In this document: one piece after another, positions 41,893-53,460 of the stretch
Layout: each line of letters starts with the position of its first letter
Numbering within the stretch: position 1 is the stretch's first letter
Assembly (NCBI RefSeq): GCF_014195485.1
Contig: NZ_JACIBU010000001.1
Coordinates: 3,224,001-3,288,000, forward strand
From: Modestobacter versicolor
Lineage (GTDB): Bacteria; Actinomycetota; Actinomycetes; Mycobacteriales; Geodermatophilaceae
Length of the DNA stretch: 64,000 nucleotides
Direction: 5' to 3'
Position numbers and translations under genes: made by a program
The notes under the pieces: model-generated
The model's input: only the letters and a program-made list of their open reading frames with translations
What the model was told of the DNA's origin: nothing
The model's database searches: none

Positions 41893-42639
41893 GTGCTCGA
41901 CGAGGCGCTCGCCGCGGCGCTCGACGAGCTGGCCGCGCACCGGCCGCTGCTGCTGGCCAGCGACTACGACGGCGTGCTGGCCCGGCTGCGCGACGACCCG
42001 GCCGCCGCCGTCCTGGAGCCCGGCACCGCCGAGCTGCTCGGCCGGCTGGCCGCGGTCGACGGCGTGACCGTCGCCCTGGTCAGCGGCCGCGGGGTCGACG
42101 ACCTGCAGCGCACCAGCGGGCTGAGCGGGCCGTTCCGCTGGGTCGGCAGCCACGGCGCGGAGTTCGACGGGCCGCTCAGCGGTGAGCTCGCCGTCCGCCG
42201 CGACCAGCTGGCGGCCGCGCTGGCCCCGCTCGTCGACGCCGTCCCCGGTGCCCGGCTGGAGGTCAAGCCGGCCAGCGCGGCGGTGCACGTGCGCACCGTC
42301 GCCGACCGCGCTGCGGCGCAGCGGCTGCTGGACGACGCCGCCGCCGGCCCCGGCGCCGCCGCCGACCTGACGGCCAAGCCGGGAAAGGACGTGCTGGAGC
42401 TGGCGGTCACCGACGCGGACAAGGGGTCGGCGCTGGTCCGGCTGCGCGACGAGCTCGGCGCCCGCGCGGTGCTCTACCTGGGCGACGACGTGACCGACGA
42501 GGACGGCTTCCGGGCGCTCGGACCCGGCGACGTCACCGTGAAGGTCGGCGACGGCGAGACCGCCGCGGCCCACCGGCTGGCCGACCTGACCGGCGTCCGC
42601 GAGCTCCTCGACCGGCTGGCCACCACGCTCTCCCGCTGA
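41893..42639 (+). CDS. otsB: Trehalose-6-phosphate phosphatase OtsB
   Basis: A 248-aa HAD phosphatase that releases trehalose. Motif I SDYDGVLA (Asp nucleophile; the usual Thr of DGT is Val), motif II ALVSGRG, KPGKDVLEL with the motif III lysine region, and motif IV YLGDDVTDEDGF. Length is typical. GTG 41893 follows the otsA stop by 2 bases, so expression is coupled. A GGTTCCGT/ACGGAACC hairpin follows the gene. Confidence 0.93.
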   Translation: MLDEALAAALDELAAHRPLLLASDYDGVLARLRDDPAAAVLEPGTAELLGRLAAVDGVTVALVSGRGVDDLQRTSGLSGPFRWVGSHGAEFDGPLSGELAVRRDQLAAALAPLVDAVPGARLEVKPASAAVHVRTVADRAAAQRLLDDAAAGPGAAADLTAKPGKDVLELAVTDADKGSALVRLRDELGARAVLYLGDDVTDEDGFRALGPGDVTVKVGDGETAAAHRLADLTGVRELLDRLATTLSR

Positions 42640-42658
42640 CCTGACCTGACCGGTCACC

Positions 42659-42679
42659 GGTTCCGTCGCTGACGGAACC
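42659..42679 (+). terminator. Terminator-like hairpin after otsB
   Basis: GGTTCCGT-CGCTG-ACGGAACC: an 8-bp perfect stem with a 5-base loop 19 bp after the otsB stop. No T-run follows. Confidence 0.6.
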
Positions 42680-42874
42680 CGCGTCGACCCCTCGCTGCAC
42701 GGCCGCACCCCGCGCCCCCGCCGACCTCATCCGTCGCAGGCGCCCCACCAGCGCGTTCGCCTCACTCACCCCCCACTCCCCCGGCGGGCCGCCGTCACGG
42801 TGCCCGGAGCCGCTGCCGATCACCTGCTCACACCGGTGCCTCGGGCCCTGTCCCGAGCCGGCGGTGGCGACGAG
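42680..42874 (+). other. Non-coding region between otsB and the cheA leader
   Basis: No gene is supported here. GCCGATCA at 42815-42822 resembles the -10 of FliA/WhiG-type promoters (GCCGATAA), but no TAAA-like -35 lies at the right distance, so a promoter is only possible. It would place the AT-rich leader element at 42875-42954 inside the transcript. Confidence 0.3.
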
Positions 42875-42954
42875 GAATTGTCGACATGTGCATGAAGAAC
42901 CATTTATCGCACATGGCCGACAATTCCAAGAATTGTCGGCGCGCATCGTTTGTT
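42875..42954 (+). promoter_or_regulatory. AT-rich cheA leader with two mutually exclusive hairpins
   Basis: Three arms of one sequence: GAATTGTCG (42875-42883), its complement within GCCGACAATTC (42916-42926), and GAATTGTCGGC (42930-42940). Hairpin A pairs 42875-42883 with 42918-42926 and 42885-42891 (CATGTGC) with 42909-42915 (GCACATG), loop 17 bases. Hairpin B pairs 42916-42926 with 42930-42940, 11 bp with a 3-base loop, and is followed by GCGCATCGTTTGTT. Both use the middle arm, so they exclude each other, as in an attenuator. A DNA operator with three half-sites is the alternative. The element is 85 bp upstream of cheA and much more AT-rich than its surroundings. Confidence 0.65.
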
Positions 42955-43038
42955 CACCTGCAGTGGTGCGAGACGGTGCCGAAGAACCAATCGCTGTGCG
43001 GGGCAGGCCCGTCACGGCATCAAGGGGATGAGGCAGGC

Positions 43039-45522
43039 GTGGAAGGTCTGGACGACATCGTCGAGGAGTTCCTCGTGGAGAGCCACGAGAACCTCGACCA
43101 GCTGGACCAGGACCTGGTGGCCCTGGAGCAGGACCCGCGGTCGCGGGAACGGCTCTCGAGCATCTTCCGGACCATCCACACGATCAAGGGCACCAGCGGC
43201 TTCCTCGCCTTCAACAAGCTGGAGGAGGTCGCGCACGTCGGGGAGAACCTCCTCTCCCGGCTGCGCGACGGCGCCCTGGACCTGACCCCCTCGCGCACGA
43301 GCGCGCTGCTGCTGATGACCGACACGATCCGGGCACTGCTCGCCGAGATCGAGGCCAGCGGTGGCGAGGGCTCGACCCCGGTGGCCGACACGGTCGTGGT
43401 GCTCAGCGCCGCGCTCGAGGACGCCCCGGCCGAGGCGGCCGTCGAGGCCGCCGCAGCCGTGGTCGAGGCAGCCGAGGCGGTCGTCGAGGCCGAGGCCGAG
43501 GTCGTCGCCGAGGCGCAGGCCGCCGCGCCGGCGCCGGTGAAGAAGGCCGCGGCCAAGAAGCCGCCGGCGAAGCGCGCCTCCCGCGCCAAGACCCCCGTGC
43601 CGGCACCGGCCCCGGTGCCCGCCGTCGAGAACGTCCCCGTGCCGTCGCCGCCGGTCGCCGCCCCGGCGCCCGTCGCCGAGCTCCCGCAGGAGGTCCCCGT
43701 GCCCGAGGTCCCCGCCGCCCCGGCCGCGCTCGCCCCCGAGCCCGGCACGCCGGAGGCCCAGCCGAAGGGCCGCGGCGTCGCCGACAGCACCATCCGGGTC
43801 GACGTCGACCTGCTGGACAACCTGATGCTGCTGGTCGGCGAGCTGGTGCTGACCCGCAACCAGATCGTCCAGTACGTCGGCCGGCAGAACGACCAGGACC
43901 TGATCCGCGCGTCCCAGCGGCTCAACCTGATCGCCAGCGAGCTGCAGGAGAGCGCGATGAAGACGCGCATGCAGCCCATCGACCACATCTGGTCCAAGCT
44001 CCCCCGCGTCGTCCGCGACCTGGGCCTGCAGTGCGGCAAGGCCGTGCGGCTGGAGATGGAGGGCAAGGACACCGAGCTGGACAAGACCCTGCTCGAGGCG
44101 GTCAAGGACCCGCTGACCCACCTGGTCCGCAACTCCGTCGACCACGGCATCGAGGACACCGCCGGCCGCGCGGCCGCCGGCAAGCCCGCCGAGGGCGTGC
44201 TCACGCTGCGCTCCCGGCACGAGAGCGGCCAGGTCGTGGTCGAGGTCGCCGACGACGGCGCGGGCATCGACCCGGCCAAGATCGGCCGCAAGGCGGTCGA
44301 GAAGGGCCTCATCACCGCCGACGCGCTCAGCCGGATGAGCCCCCAGGACCTGCTGCAGCTGATCTTCCTGCCCGGCTTCTCCACCGCCGCCGCGGTCACC
44401 AACGTCTCCGGGCGCGGTGTCGGCATGGACGTGGTCAAGACCAACATCGAGGGCATCGGCGGCACCATCGAGGTCGAGTCGGTCGCCGGTCGCGGCACCT
44501 GCATGCGGCTGCGCATCCCGCTGACCCTCGCGATCGTCCCGGCGCTCACCATCGAGTGCGCCGGCGACCGCTACGCCATCCCGCAGATCAGCCTGCAGGA
44601 GCTCGTGGCGCTGGACGCCGAGAAGGCCGCCGCGGCGGTCGAGGACGTCGGCGGCGCCTCGGTCTACCGGCTGCGCGGCGAGCTGCTGCCGCTGGTGCAC
44701 CTGGCCGACGTGCTCGGCCTCACCTCCGACCGGCACGACGGCCACGTGGTCATCGCCGTGCTGAGCTCCGAGGGGCGCCGGTTCGGCCTGGTGGTCGACC
44801 GGGTCATCAACACCGAGGAGATCGTCGTCAAGGCGGTCAGCGGCCAGCTCAAGCAGATCGGGCTGTACTCCGGCGCGACCGTGCTCGGCGACGGTGCGGT
44901 GGCGCTGATCCTCGACGTCCAGGCGCTGGCCCGCCGCGCCCTGCGCACCGAGACCACCGACCGCCAGGAGCACCGCCTCGCCGCGGCCGCGGCGGCCGCC
45001 TCGGTCTCCGAGCGCCAGCGGATGCTGCTCGCCGCGATCGGCGGCGGCCGGCGGGTCGCGATCCCGCTGGACACCGTCACCCGCCTGGAGCAGGTGCGCA
45101 GCGACACCGTCGAGCGGGTCGGCTCCCGGGAGGTCGTGCAGTACCGCGGCGCGATCCTGCCGATCGTCCGGCTCGACCGGCACCTGGGCGCCTTCGGCGA
45201 CTCCGACCGCGAGGTGCTCGAGGTCATCGTCTACGCCGACCACGGCCGCAGCGTCGCGATCGTCGTCGAGGAGATCCTCGACATCGTCGACGGCGAGGCC
45301 GCGGTGCAGAGCGACATCGACGACCTGGGCCTGCTCGGCTCCGCCGTCATCGGCGACCGGGTCACCGAGCTGCTGGACGTCCGCGCGGCCATCCTCGCCG
45401 CCGACCCGGCGTTCTACTCCCCCGCGCCGGGCGCCCTGCCCGGCGGCCTCGGCTCGATGCCCGACATCGACACCAGCGCCTTCGGCTTCGAGGGCACCTC
45501 TTCCCCCCTGATGGAGGTCTGA
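43039..45522 (+). CDS. cheA: Chemotaxis histidine kinase CheA with two CheW-like domains
   Basis: An 827-aa kinase. The Hpt domain has IFRTIHTIKGTSGF with phospho-acceptor His47. A long Ala/Glu/Pro linker (about 130-245) includes a histone-like KKAAAKKPPAKRASRAK. Dimerisation starts at STIRVDVDLLDNLMLLVGEL; the ATPase domain has the N box HLVRNSVDHGIE (about 361), VADDGAGID, FLPGFSTA and GRGVGMDVVK. Two CheW-like domains follow (about 495-635 and 655-790), one more than usual. No CheY-binding P2 domain is obvious. GTG 43039 has GAGG about 7 bases upstream; the frame continues up to ATG 42886 through the leader, which is less likely to be translated. cheW follows after 1 bp. Confidence 0.95.
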   Translation: MEGLDDIVEEFLVESHENLDQLDQDLVALEQDPRSRERLSSIFRTIHTIKGTSGFLAFNKLEEVAHVGENLLSRLRDGALDLTPSRTSALLLMTDTIRALLAEIEASGGEGSTPVADTVVVLSAALEDAPAEAAVEAAAAVVEAAEAVVEAEAEVVAEAQAAAPAPVKKAAAKKPPAKRASRAKTPVPAPAPVPAVENVPVPSPPVAAPAPVAELPQEVPVPEVPAAPAALAPEPGTPEAQPKGRGVADSTIRVDVDLLDNLMLLVGELVLTRNQIVQYVGRQNDQDLIRASQRLNLIASELQESAMKTRMQPIDHIWSKLPRVVRDLGLQCGKAVRLEMEGKDTELDKTLLEAVKDPLTHLVRNSVDHGIEDTAGRAAAGKPAEGVLTLRSRHESGQVVVEVADDGAGIDPAKIGRKAVEKGLITADALSRMSPQDLLQLIFLPGFSTAAAVTNVSGRGVGMDVVKTNIEGIGGTIEVESVAGRGTCMRLRIPLTLAIVPALTIECAGDRYAIPQISLQELVALDAEKAAAAVEDVGGASVYRLRGELLPLVHLADVLGLTSDRHDGHVVIAVLSSEGRRFGLVVDRVINTEEIVVKAVSGQLKQIGLYSGATVLGDGAVALILDVQALARRALRTETTDRQEHRLAAAAAAASVSERQRMLLAAIGGGRRVAIPLDTVTRLEQVRSDTVERVGSREVVQYRGAILPIVRLDRHLGAFGDSDREVLEVIVYADHGRSVAIVVEEILDIVDGEAAVQSDIDDLGLLGSAVIGDRVTELLDVRAAILAADPAFYSPAPGALPGGLGSMPDIDTSAFGFEGTSSPLMEV

Positions 45523-47816: not shown

Positions 47817-48090
47817 CCCGGGCCATTCCCGCCGCCCTATCAGCGTCCTTTCTGGTACCGATTGCACGACACGCCGCGAAAAGCGGTAATCGCAGTTTCC
47901 GCAACCCCCACCATGACTCCTGCACCACCGGTGCCACGCCATTCCGGCAGGCGCCGGCAGGGCGACCCAGGCCACTCCGCGAAACCGTCGTCGTCGACTC
48001 GGGGAATGGTCACCACCCCCCGTTCCGCACCCACCGGCGATCCGCTGATCGACCGCCCTGCCCGACCCGCCGCCTCCCAGGAGACCCGCC
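47817..48090 (+). other. Leader/promoter region of receptor 2
   Basis: 274 bp with no supported gene. It holds a relatively AT-rich patch (about 47840-47900) with ACCGATT (47857-47863) followed by CGACAC (47867-47872); the same pair, ACCGATT then CGACAC 4 bases later, is found in front of receptor 3 (49846-49862). A small CCGC-GAAAA-GCGG hairpin lies at 47874-47886. CCATTCC occurs at 47823 and 47939. A promoter is likely, but I cannot fix its position. Confidence 0.4.
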
Positions 48091-49686
48091 ATGCGCTCCC
48101 CCGCCTCGACCCGCCGCTCCGGCTGGTTCGCCGACCGGCCCCTCGCCGTCAAGTTCGGTCTGCTCGTCGGCGTCGTCGTGCTGACGTTCGCGGTCCTGCT
48201 CGGCACCCTGCTCAGCTCCAACGCCGACGTGCACGAGGCGGAGGTGGACAGCGGGCACCTGAACCAGGCGCAGAACCTGGCGCTCCAGCTCGACACCCGG
48301 GCCAGCGAGTTCAAGGTCGACGCGTTCCGCGCGCTGGTCCGCCCCGACCCGGCCGCCGAGCTGCCCAACCTGGCCGACGACGTGGCGACCGCGCAGGGCC
48401 TGCTCGACGAGCTCGCCGCCGTCCCGCTCACCGGGGAGTCGGCGGTCGCGGTGGCCGCGCTGCAGGACAGCTTCGCCACCTACACCGACTCCATCGCGGG
48501 CATCGTGAACGCGGCCGTGGGCAACCAGCTCCAGGCCCGGGCGTCCTACGAGACGATCCAGACCGCGAACGACGTCACCGACGCCGCGGTCAGCGAGGCC
48601 AAGGACGCCCTGGCGGCCGACTACGCGGCGGCCGACGAGCGGATGGAGTCCGCGATCAGCCGGGCGAACACCCTCGGCACGGTCGTGGTGGTCGTGGGCC
48701 TGCTGCTCATCGTCGGGATCAGCCTGCTCACCCTCCGCTCGCTGCGCGGGCCGATCACCCGGGTGAAGGCGTCGCTCGAGGCGATGGCCCGCGGCGACCT
48801 CACCGTCGACTCGGCCGTCACCGCCCGGGACGAGGTCGGCCAGATGGCCACCGCCCTGGGCACCGCCCAGCAGCACCTGCGCACCGTGGTGGCGGGGGTG
48901 GCGGCGTCCGCCGACGCGGTGGCCGCGGCGTCGGAGGAGCTCTCGGCGTCCTCCGCGCAGATCTCCTCCTCGGCGCAGGAGACGTCGGCGCAGTCCGGGG
49001 TGGTCTCCGCCGCCGCCGAGGAGGTCTCCCGCAGCGTGGCGACCGTCGCCGCCGGCGCCGACGAGATGACCGGGGCCATCCGGGAGATCTCGCAGAGCGC
49101 CAACGAGGCCGCCCGGGTGGCCGCCCAGGCGGTCACCGAGGCGCAGGCGACGACCACGACGATCACCAAGCTGGGCACGTCGTCGCAGGAGATCGGCGCC
49201 GTGGTGAAGGCGATCACCAGCATCGCCGAGCAGACCAACCTGCTGGCGCTGAACGCGACCATCGAGGCGGCCCGGGCGGGGGAGGCCGGCAAGGGCTTCG
49301 CCGTGGTCGCGAACGAGGTCAAGGAGCTGGCCCAGGAGACGGCGCGGGCCACCGAGGACATCGCCCGCCGGGTGGAGGCCATCCAGGGCGACACAGCGGG
49401 CGCCGTCGACGCCATCGGCCGGATCAGCGAGATCATCGGCTCGATCAACGACTACCAGCTGACCATCGCCTCCGCGGTGGAGGAGCAGACGGCGACGACG
49501 AACGAGATGTCCCGGTCGGTCCAGGAGGCCGCCAGCGGGTCGACGGAGATCGCCACGAACATCACCGGCGTCTCCACGGCCGCCGCCTCGACCACCCAGT
49601 CGCTGGACCAGACCCGCCAGGCCGTCGACGAGCTGTCCCGGATGGCCAGCGACCTGCGGGGGAGCGTCGCCACCTTCACCTACTGA
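48091..49686 (+). CDS. Methyl-accepting chemotaxis protein 2
   Basis: A 531-aa receptor with TM1 at about 20-42, a four-helix-bundle sensory domain, TM2 at about 196-218, HAMP ([24 protein letters not shown]), and the conserved signalling hairpin tip ([27 protein letters not shown]). It ends ATFTY. The sensory domain is unrelated in sequence to those of receptors 1, 3 and 4, so a different signal is expected. ATG 48091 has AGGAG upstream. It is transcribed on its own, between strong terminators. Its signalling domain is less similar to receptors 1 and 3 at the DNA level. Confidence 0.93.
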
Positions 49687-49700
49687 CCTGCGCCCGGCCC

Positions 49701-49743
49701 GACGGCCGCCACACCTCCGACGACCGGGGGAGTGGCGGCCGTC
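49701..49743 (+). terminator. Terminator after receptor 2
   Basis: GACGGCCGCCAC (49701-49712) pairs perfectly with GTGGCGGCCGTC (49732-49743): a 12-bp stem 15 bp after the stop codon. Confidence 0.8.
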
Positions 49744-49987
49744 GCCATGTCCGGTCGCCATTCCGGCGGCCATTCTCGGTGTCCGGCAGAAATGGTCGCG
49801 ATGTCGACATGCGGACTCCGGGAAACGGTAGTCCGACGTTTTGGGACCGATTCCAGCGACACGCAGGTGATGTGGTACCCGCCGCTTCCGGAACCACTCA
49901 CCATTGCCCTGCACCGGGACGCTGGAACAGCACCGGTCGCCCTCCGCTCCACCATTCCTCCCGCTCGTCACACCCTGGAGAACGACC
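49744..49987 (+). other. Leader/promoter region of receptor 3
   Basis: 244 bp without a supported gene. It contains TGTCGACA (49802-49809), a hairpin CGGACTCCG/CGGTAGTCCG (49812-49836, one bulged base) followed by ACGTTTT, and ACCGATT with CGACAC (49846-49862). CCATTC occurs at 49758, 49770 and 49952. The hairpin plus T-run could be a leader terminator, which would make this receptor attenuated. Confidence 0.45.
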
Positions 49988-51598: not shown

Positions 51599-51600
51599 CC

Positions 51601-51639
51601 CCAGCAGCACGACCCAGCAGCACGACCCAGCAGCACGAC
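51601..51639 (+). repeat. 13-bp tandem repeat, three perfect copies
   Basis: CCAGCAGCACGAC occurs three times head to tail between the receptor 3 stop and its terminator. It is outside any gene and may vary in copy number between strains. Confidence 0.9.
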
Positions 51640-51640
51640 C

Positions 51641-51671
51641 GAGCCGCGCGGACCCCTGGTCCGCGCGGCTC
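51641..51671 (+). terminator. Terminator after receptor 3
   Basis: GAGCCGCGCGGACC pairs perfectly with GGTCCGCGCGGCTC, a 14-bp stem with a 3-base loop (CCT). Confidence 0.85.
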
Positions 51672-51855
51672 CGTCGTTCCCGGGCCGGTGACCGCCCTTG
51701 TCGACACGTCGCCAGCTGCGCGCGGTCACCGGTGTTTCTGCAGGTGGGAGGCGCGACACGCCTTGCGCCTGCGCGTCGGGGAGCCGGCGGCTGCCGCACG
51801 ATCTGTGCCACCACGCCGGTCCCACCGGCCCCAGCAGTCCCAGGAGGCACGTCCC
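51672..51855 (+). other. Leader/promoter region of receptor 4
   Basis: 184 bp without a supported gene. CCGGTGACCGC (51685-51695) and GCGGTCACCGG (51722-51732) form an 11-bp perfect inverted repeat with a 26-base loop that contains TGTCGACA (51699-51706). The right arm is followed by TGTTTCTGC. It may be an operator or a leader hairpin. Confidence 0.45.
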
Positions 51856-53460
51856 GTGAGCGCACCATCCGTCGTCGCCCGGTTCCGCGACCGCGGCATC
51901 ATGGCCAAGATCGTCGCGGCCGTCCTGGTGGCCGTCCTGGTGGCCGTGGGCGTCGGGCTGGTGGGCCTGCGCAGCCTCGGCAGCTCGGCCGCGGCGACCG
52001 AGAGCATGTACACCGACGAGCTGGTCGGCACCGTCGACGTCGAGGCCGTCCGCGCCGAGCTCTACGCGCTCCGGCTGTCGTCGGTGAACTACGCCGTGGC
52101 CACCGAGCAGTCGGCCAAGCAGTCCTACATGGGCGACCGCCAGGAGGCCTACGAGGGCCTGGCCAAGGCCGCCTCGCACTACCTGGCCACCCACCCCACC
52201 GCGGAGAGCCGGGAGCTGATCGACCACGCGCTGGGGCAGGTCAACCACTACAAGCAGGCGATGCCCGCCCTCGACGAGCTGGCCGACGCCGGCGACCTGA
52301 CCGCCTGGTCGGAGATGCGCGAGACCGTCGTCGCACCGATCGCCGCCTCGATCATCTCCGACCTCGACCGGCTCGCCACGCTGCGCCAGGAGGCCGCCGC
52401 CGGCAGCGCCGACGAGGCCAGCGCCTCCTACGACCGCACCCGCTGGGTGCTGATCGCCGTGATCGCCGCCGGCGCGCTGGCGGCGCTGGGCTTCGGGGTG
52501 CTGGTGGCCCGCCGGATCACCGGCGCGCTGCGCCGGGTGCAGTCGGCGGCCGAGGGGCTCGCCGAGGGCGACCTCACCCGCACGGCCGGCGTCACCACCC
52601 GCGACGAGGTGGGCCGCACGGGTGCCGCGCTGGACGGCGCGATGGCCGAGCTGCGGGCGGTGATGAGCTCGGTCGTCGCCTCGGCCGACGCCGTCGCCGC
52701 CTCGTCGGGGCAGCTGTCGGCCTCGGCGGCGGAGATCTCCACCTCGGCGGAGGAGACCGCGGTGCAGTCCGGCGTCGTCTCCGCGGCCGCCGGGGAGGTG
52801 TCGCGGAACGTGGCCACCGTGGCGGCCGGCGCGGAGGAGATGGGCGCCTCGATCCGGGAGATCAGCCAGAACGCCAACGACGCCGCCCAGGTCGCGGCCC
52901 GGGCGGTCACCGAGGCCGAGCAGACGACCGCCACGATCACCCAGCTGGGCGTCTCCTCCCGGGAGATCGGGGCGGTGGTCAAGACCATCACCAGCATCGC
53001 CGAGCAGACCAACCTGCTGGCGCTGAACGCCACCATCGAGGCGGCGCGGGCGGGGGAGGCCGGCAAGGGCTTCGCGGTCGTCGCCAACGAGGTCAAGGAG
53101 CTGGCCCAGGAGACGGCGCGGGCGACCGAGGACATCGCTCGCCGGGTCGAGGCGATCCAGGGCGACACCACGCGGGCGGTGCAGGCGATCACCGGGATCT
53201 CCACCGTCATCGGCTCGATCAACGACATCCAGCTGACCATCGCCAGCGCGGTGGAGGAGCAGACGGCGACGACGAGCGAGATGTCCCGGTCGGTGCAGGA
53301 GGCCGCCAGCGGCTCGACGGAGATCGCCACGAGCATCACCGGCGTCTCGACGGCCGCGGCGTCCACCACCCGGTCGCTGGGGCAGACCCGCCAGGCCGTC
53401 GACGAGCTGTCCCGGATGGCCGGCGACCTGCGCGGCAGCGTCGCCCGCTTCACCTTCTGA
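51856..53460 (+). CDS. Methyl-accepting chemotaxis protein 4
   Basis: A 534-aa receptor. TM1 at about 16-35; four-helix sensory domain ([23 protein letters not shown]); TM2 at about 196-218; HAMP ([26 protein letters not shown]); signalling hairpin with the usual tip; ends ARFTF. GTG 51856 has AGGAGG 8 bases upstream; the longer frame starting at 51688 runs back through the leader repeats. Several residues that are conserved in the other three receptors differ (for example [11 protein letters not shown] for [11 protein letters not shown]). Confidence 0.92.

Follow-up and report, generated by a model that had tools for sequence, protein, structure and literature searches.

The AT-rich island upstream of cheA in Modestobacter versicolor is probably a two-promoter control region with candidate regulator half-sites that are common to the chemotaxis cluster. 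The island would act mainly as a DNA control region of the cheA operon and not primarily as an RNA switch. Two flagellar-type (sigma28/FliA/WhiG) promoters, P1 and P2, would drive cheA, and between them lies a block of TGTCGACA (motif A), GAAT[GT]GTC-like candidate half-sites on both strands (related to motif B, GAATGGTC) and CCATT. The block lies about 45-110 bp past the predicted P1 start and about 115-50 bp ahead of that of P2, and would be read by a putative DNA-binding regulator. The three GAATTGTC arms would be three half-sites of this regulator, and they would fold too because the half-sites are inverted copies. With related sites before receptor (mcp) genes of the cluster as well, a single regulator would adjust the chemotaxis genes jointly. 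Protein binding, like the identity and sign of the regulator, is inferred. The features are listed in Table 1, in which positions refer to the window, the whole stretch of 64,000 nucleotides that was analysed.

Table 1. Promoters, repeats, motifs and genes of the cheA leader and the receptor-gene leaders.
Feature	Sequence or layout	Position	Strand	Remarks
P1, predicted distal sigma28-type promoter	GTCA (42794-42797)-N17-GCCGAT (42815-42820)	42794..42820	+	predicted start ~42828
Arm 1	GGAATTGTCG	42874-42883	+	its GAATTGTC is motif B (GAATGGTC) with one mismatch
Motif A	TGTCGACA	42879..42886	+	overlaps arm 1; found without mismatch in 18 of the 21 cheA leaders of Modestobacter
Inner 7-bp stem of hairpin 1	CATGTGC / GCACATG	42885-42891 with 42909-42915 (span 42885..42915)	+	
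Arm 2	CGACAATTCC	42918-42927	+	one-mismatch motif B on the minus strand; pairs and co-evolves with arm 1
Arm 3	GAATTGTCGGC	42930-42940	+	not conserved among relatives
P2, predicted proximal sigma28-type promoter	-35 TGCA-N15- -10 GCCGAA (42978-42983)	42959..42983	+	predicted start ~42990
cheA	Hpt, H-kinase_dim, HATPase_c, CheW	43039..45522	+	GTG start; start region conserved in the genus
mcp2 leader (gene 48091-49686)	motif B GAATGGTC	48004..48011	+	CCATTC also at 47823 and 47939
mcp3 leader	CCATTC 49758, 49770; AAATGGTC 49790; TGTCGACA 49802-N16-CGGT	49758..49829	+	
mcp4 leader	GGTGACC 51687; TGTCGACA 51699-N16-CGGTCACC	51687..51730	+	

What switches on chemotaxis in actinobacteria from soil and stone seems to be little studied. 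The outcome here is a pair of predicted promoters and a set of candidate operator motifs common to cheA and the receptors. A guessed riboswitch thereby gives way to defined promoter and operator hypotheses, and the leader supplies bait DNA for the putative regulator.

Downstream of cheA the window has cheW, four receptor (mcp) genes and cheB, and the gene upstream of cheA carries a trehalose-phosphatase domain. Among the records listed, which may lack the nearest ones, the best named match of CheA is from Modestobacter altitudinis, with 91% identity in the best-matching segment. The receptor gene at 51688 (mcp4) encodes an MCP when read in the correct frame. The cheA frame is open upstream to an ATG at 42886, through the hairpin (42886-43038), probably by chance. 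This ATG is unlikely as the cheA start, since cheA is conserved from the GTG and the leaders of relatives differ by insertions and deletions.

The preliminary description of this leader had reported an AT-rich island holding a repeat, its complement and the repeat again, and had taken the arms for mutually exclusive hairpins of an RNA switch. The island is indeed present: GC content is 0.49 at 42880-42959, against at least 0.61 in the flanks (0.70-0.80 in intervals ending before 42880 and 0.61-0.74 in intervals from 42960 on). Also as described, arms 2 and 3 form an 11-bp stem with a 3-base loop (GCCGACAATTC at 42916-42926 with GAATTGTCGGC, ending at 42940), and a T-rich TTTGTT lies at 42949-42954, 84 bp (85 bp in that account) before the cheA start codon. 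The stem of arms 1 and 2, reported as 9+7 bp, has its 7-bp inner part, and direct reading gives its outer part 10 bp and not 9. The loop of this hairpin contains a conserved CCATT (42900-42904). Exactly three copies of GAATTGTCG exist in the 4.59-Mb Modestobacter genome, all of them in the cheA leader, and the pattern read backwards has none. The 111-nt fold has a z score of -4.37, with 0 of 200 shuffles equally stable. By these two measures the hairpin fold is more than chance.

Both promoter-like elements are conserved. Counted back from the cheA start codon, P1 lies at about 245-219 bp and P2 at about 80-56 bp; both start sites are predicted from the usual spacing, and the sigma factor that would use them is likewise a prediction. 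P1 with exactly N17 occurs in 20 of the 21 leaders of the genus (reversed, 0; 300 shuffles, mean 0.00 and maximum 1), and the P2 -10 GCCGA[AT] in all 21 (reversed, 0; shuffle mean 0.65, maximum 5). The P2 -35 of the window is weak and deviating, and TTCA or CTCA stands there in 15 of the 21 leaders. The two -10 elements are 163-164 bp apart in 12 leaders and 136 in four, with 116, 175, 185 and 187 in the remaining four that have P1.

Outside the genus we used a strict form, [CT]TCA-N15-17-GCCGA[AT], on 40 distinct actinobacterial cheA leaders (43 entered, three duplicates dropped; L046 and L064, which bear actinobacterial names, and all non-actinobacterial loci left out). It matched 23 of them, 15 of 21 within the genus and 8 of 19 outside, whereas reversed, reverse-complement and farther-upstream controls gave 0 and shuffles a mean of 0.01; the window cheA leader is not among the 23. 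A loose promoter pattern matched 28 of the 40 leaders, and in the control placed farther upstream it matched 19 of 40; following up these control matches led to P1. In two related genera (g11 and g12), 17 of the 19 loci read have at least two GCCGA[AT] in the 150 bp next to cheA, with a usual spacing of about 60 bp. As a genome-wide promoter finder, CTCA-N15-17-GCCGAA, a consensus that reportedly comes from Actinoplanes work, was rejected (18 matches versus 26 reversed); because the strict pattern is no commoner than its reversed control, it is useful only at aligned positions.

The P1 form recurs at flagellar genes. The flgB promoter reads GTCA-N17-GCCGA in 20 of 20 genus loci, with GCCGAT in 17, and the flagellin promoters show a related form as judged by eye. 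A FliA/WhiG-type sigma is encoded on contig 2 of the genome (282 bits versus a family cut-off of 189.6), and a second FliA-family sigma, directly before the flagellin genes (G000:C1:2288619-2289278), scores 155.6 bits, under the cut-off. Two hallmarks of sigma28 promoters are found here, namely a -10 at fixed spacing from a conserved -35 and a cognate sigma in the genome. In the accessible text of one study, the flagellar sigma consensus is given as TAAA / GCCGATAA, and WhiG is placed in the flagellar clade with a shared promoter type (PMC8325347). P1 and P2 resemble sigma28 (FliA/WhiG) promoters in the -10 core GCCGA[AT], in the spacing class and in standing before chemotaxis and flagellar genes. 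They differ from them in the -35, which is GTCA, TTCA or CTCA here and not TAAA, and in the tandem arrangement of two promoters before cheA.

Of the two proposed hairpins, one co-evolves and the other does not. We aligned the 21 Modestobacter cheA leaders. Because the pairing register shifts between lineages, arm-swap tests were used in place of fixed alignments, and they compared the pairing of a leader's own arms with that of arms from other lineages in 20 of the 21 leaders (L023, which has no TGTCGACA, was excluded). The seven lineage groups were assigned by eye on the alignment and not via a tree. Permutations were drawn with repetition, and the six groups left without the window species allow 719 distinct swaps, for a smallest meaningful chance of about 1/720.

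Compensatory change in both stems had been proposed as a check on the RNA switch, and the outcome is split. Own pairs of arms 1 and 2 scored -18.43 versus -14.21 (sd 0.96) for swapped ones, and none of 4,998 permutations did as well. When the window species is left out, the values were -16.75 versus -13.07 (sd 0.80), and 0 of 4,997 were as good. Both parts of stem 1 contribute: swaps were as good in 4 of 4,998 (4 of 4,997 without the window species) for the inner segments and in 11 of 4,998 (39 of 4,997) for the outer ones. Four leaders from a single lineage (L008, L011, L014 and L018) pair weakly in the inner part (-0.3 to -4.3). For arms 2 and 3, 396 of 4,998 swaps were as good, and 1,834 of 4,997 without the window species; the corresponding counts were 3,395 of 4,998 for arms 1 and 3, and 270 of 4,998 for the upstream flank with arm 2. 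None of the 20 relatives has GAATTGTCG at the place of arm 3, where many have an A-rich block (AGAAAAnGCG-like). Stem 2 is private to the window species.

In a fixed register, 59.8% of the stem-1 cells of 12 leaders are paired (shuffles 56.8, sd 0.9, 0 of 500 as high). Three pairs changed on both sides, and slid versions of the stem also reach up to three, so that the fixed-register count for stem 1 is weak alone. For stem 2 the paired share is 53.0%, a value reached by 189 of 500 shuffles, and in six pairs both sides have changed, a number reached by 93 of 500. RNAalifold on the fixed alignments returned no such hairpin, a result that counts against the RNA reading and may also reflect the register shifts. 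Single-sequence folding of 23 leaders gave z scores from -4.62 to +1.47. GTCGAC and CCATT do not vary across 16 leaders that align almost without gaps, which favours the reading as DNA sites.

Stem 1 has been kept across the genus by selection or by hairpin-templated mutation. The second of these would mean that quasi-palindrome repair maintains the inverted repeat and that the pairing itself has no function. It would account for inner arms that were wholly replaced yet stay paired across lineages, with a shifted register and variable loop length, and for perfect 10+7 and 11-bp repeats that are species-specific. Such repair would however have to act at one place throughout the genus, and the conservation of the motifs needs a separate cause; we regard it as quite unlikely. 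Co-evolution of stem 1 also counts against the operator reading, as a plain operator does not require it.

If the pairing is functional in RNA, stem 1 could be a stabiliser, a protein site or a pausing hairpin in the P1 leader of about 210 nt, and in the window species arm 3, once transcribed, would displace the outer stem by an additional fold. Ensemble prediction on RNAs from the predicted P1 start, running beyond arm 3, agrees with the displacement and shows that the swap depends on transcript length: stem 2 (p 0.87-0.96) displaces the outer part of stem 1 (p 0.03-0.13), which has p 1.00 when the RNA ends at 42930. The inner 7-bp stem keeps a mean p of 1.00 in the RNAs past arm 3, so the mutual exclusion claimed for the two folds applies to the outer stem and stem 2, whereas the inner stem is predicted to form alongside. 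The conservation of P1 upstream of the hairpin fits an RNA element, as does the co-evolution of arms 1 and 2, inner and outer, with and without the window species, which arms 1 and 3 do not share. Against it, arm 3 occurs in one species only and its pairing with arm 2 is unsupported, RNAalifold returns no such hairpin, slid versions of stem 1 show as many two-sided changes in the fixed register, only 6 of the 23 leaders fold with z below -2, and arm 1 is near invariant across the genus while arm 2 drifts. Moreover, the hairpins sit between P1 and P2, that is, upstream of the predicted P2 start, and would be in the RNA only if P1 fires; P2 would give a cheA mRNA that has no hairpin. An RNA element of this kind is unlikely in our judgement.

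A two-state attenuator or riboswitch with two conserved folds, as first suggested, was rejected. Stem 1 covaries and stem 2 does not, and arm 3 is private to one species. The interval 42600-43100 has no terminator-like site, neither a terminator with a U-run nor masking of the ribosome site was found, and the 3' end of the fold lies 98 bases upstream of the cheA start codon; by these two observations, nothing was found downstream of the folds that is able to act on expression. The predicted P2 start also lies downstream of 42940, the limit beyond which, in the preliminary description, a cheA start would refute the switch. That description had matched the leader to no known riboswitch class, and in Rfam the only matches are two microRNA models at chance level, far under their gathering scores. 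The repeats resemble the proposed switch only weakly, and the part of the RNA reading that survives is a role that stem 1 could have in P1 transcripts.

It is decidedly improbable that the block serves two purposes, as DNA half-sites of an undescribed chemotaxis regulator of the Geodermatophilaceae and, in RNA made only from P1, as a selected hairpin that changes what becomes of the long cheA transcript. Promoter choice would then decide whether the cheA operon carries RNA control, and arm 3 would be an added co-transcriptional refolding step in the window species.

The preferred reading, a control region with DNA sites, draws on the placement of the motifs. Window-wide they are no commoner than chance, and their placement is uneven. 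Three copies of TGTCGACA lie in the window, at 42879 (cheA), 49802 (before mcp3) and 51699 (before mcp4), an unremarkable number (0.93 expected; 6 of 100 shuffles as high), and all three are in leaders of the che cluster (leader dinucleotide shuffles, mean 0.03, 0 of 500 as high). After the arms had been seen, the pattern of motif B was relaxed to GAAT[GT]G[TC]C; in this form it occurs six times on either strand of the window, always in che-cluster leaders, and three of the six are the arms (shuffle mean 0.15, 0 of 500 as high). The core GAATGG/CCATTC, which was taken from other genera, likewise has six copies, all in che leaders (shuffle mean 0.81, 0 of 500). With one mismatch, GAATGGTC is not over-represented in the whole window (17 sites versus 22.46 expected), and 8 of the 17 are at cheA, mcp2 and mcp3. 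The placement test covered five leaders, two of which (49687-49985 and 51599-51900) were extended past the first listed ORF starts because the true starts seem to be later; the extended stretches contain one core copy (49952) and one TGTCGACA (51699).

The same bias is seen in ten related clusters of about 15-16 kb. They hold 73 copies of TGTCGACA, GAATGG, CCATTC, GAATTGTC or their complements. Stretches with homology to the chemotaxis proteins of the window make up 74% of the bases; 67 copies fall outside these stretches and six inside. By crude gene calls, 69 of the 73 are outside calls or in their first 90 bases, with one receptor gene of L288 left uncalled. The motifs stand before cheA and receptor genes in seven of eight Modestobacter clusters and only before receptor genes in the other (L290); in two clusters of another genus (g4) they stand before cheA only.

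For other genera of the family we read 40 leaders, drawn from 73 non-Modestobacter genomes with a cheA match. In seven of the 40, TGTCGACA is found no more than 400 bp from cheA (five of seven in g4, one of eight in g5 and one of one in g9). Two copies are present in five of these seven leaders, at a distance of 34 bp in g4 and 44 bp in g9. The remaining two g4 leaders carry GTGTCGAC, and g4 leaders also contain inverted pairs that resemble GACCATTC/GAATGGTC. Turnover of this kind in number and spacing is seen more typically with protein sites than with a single RNA fold.

A protein operator with half-sites had been named as the alternative to the switch, and it agrees best with the evidence as a whole, since the motifs are also found before receptor genes and outside the genus. 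GAATTGTCG was rejected as a genome-wide operator, having no copies beyond the three in the leader; since it is absent elsewhere in the genome, the arms are at best diverged copies. TGTCGACAYG has 12 further sites in the genome, a point against the operator reading, and motif B was found within 200 bp at 0 of the 11 loci examined; nor does it occur within 200 bp of the mcp4 site. In the open literature we found no description of the putative regulator or of the motifs, and no on-topic paper by title for TTGTCGACA as a binding site.

A further point against the operator reading is that TGTCGACA in the mcp leaders may be a promoter -35 and not an operator. Across the window and the ten related clusters, CGGT follows TGTCGACA at exactly N16 in 10 of 16 sites outside cheA leaders, and NGGT in 13 of 16; at the other offsets from 8 to 25, CGGT occurs only at 23 (two sites). 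The elements of the window span 49802-49829 and 51699-51726, and those of relatives are in the mcp leaders of L286-L293. The TGTCGACA-N16-CGGT layout looks like a promoter of the ECF kind. It is close to the ECF41 signature, which the accessible text of PMC3426412 gives as TGTCACA-n16-CGTC, and shares with it the two-block layout and the spacing. The mcp leaders are related to that signature and not identical with it, as the first block has an extra G and CGGT replaces CGTC, and the cheA leader lacks the element. Neither CGGT nor NGGT occurs at N16 in any of the nine cheA sites, and no ECF sigma was linked to the element. Given its absence at cheA, the ECF-like reading cannot explain the cheA leader as it stands, and that TGTCGACA marks a further ECF-like promoter is highly improbable as an account of the island. 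RNA polymerase may recognise TGTCGACA at the receptors and something else may do so at cheA, or TGTCGACA and CGGT may be a pair of protein sites.

The true start of mcp4 is probably later than 51688, where the longest ORF begins, because the receptor domains start only at residue 71. An inverted repeat, GGTGACCG ... CGGTCACC, flanks TGTCGACA before this gene (51687-51730), and 3.5 copies of a tandem repeat, CCCAGCAGCACGA, lie at 51600-51644, just past the mcp3 stop.

The arrangement proposed for cheA, a sigma28-type promoter with regulator sites, has a precedent. In Escherichia coli the sigma28 promoters of aer and trg are activated by CRP, according to the accessible text of PMC2859248, so the kind of arrangement, with an activator site ahead of a chemoreceptor's sigma28 promoter, is known. 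The cheA leader is like these in having a sigma28-type promoter with a regulator site upstream, here candidate sites, and unlike them in having several such candidates, which precede the predicted P2 start by about 115-50 bp. Regulator sites at actinobacterial developmental genes offer another comparison. The TcrA box of Actinoplanes is a GCA[A/C]CCG direct repeat (PMC12691653) and the BldM/WhiI sites of Streptomyces read TCACcCgnncGgGTGA (PMC4125116), as given in the parts of these papers that were accessible. Compared by eye, the TcrA box, BldM and BldM-WhiI consensus sequences from those parts are unlike GAATGGTC or TGTCGACA.

Several minor observations concern the leaders of relatives and the flagellar genes. 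In seven relatives (L006, L007, L009, L010, L012, L013 and L019) an inverted repeat like CTGTGACCG ... CGGTCACAG spans the P1 -35, about 245-285 bp before cheA; it was not seen in the window. The flgB leader keeps CACGGATCGGCGG or a near copy within the genus. The flagellar cluster contains a csrA gene (Pfam CsrA, 86.9 bits; L168 9199-9378, minus strand), and in the leaders of flagellin genes (near G000:C1:2289500-2292480 and 1557800-1557900) small hairpins such as CCACCGCACGGATGCGGTGG contain CACGGATG or CACGGACG. Together with csrA, these leader elements look like CsrA control of flagellin mRNA.
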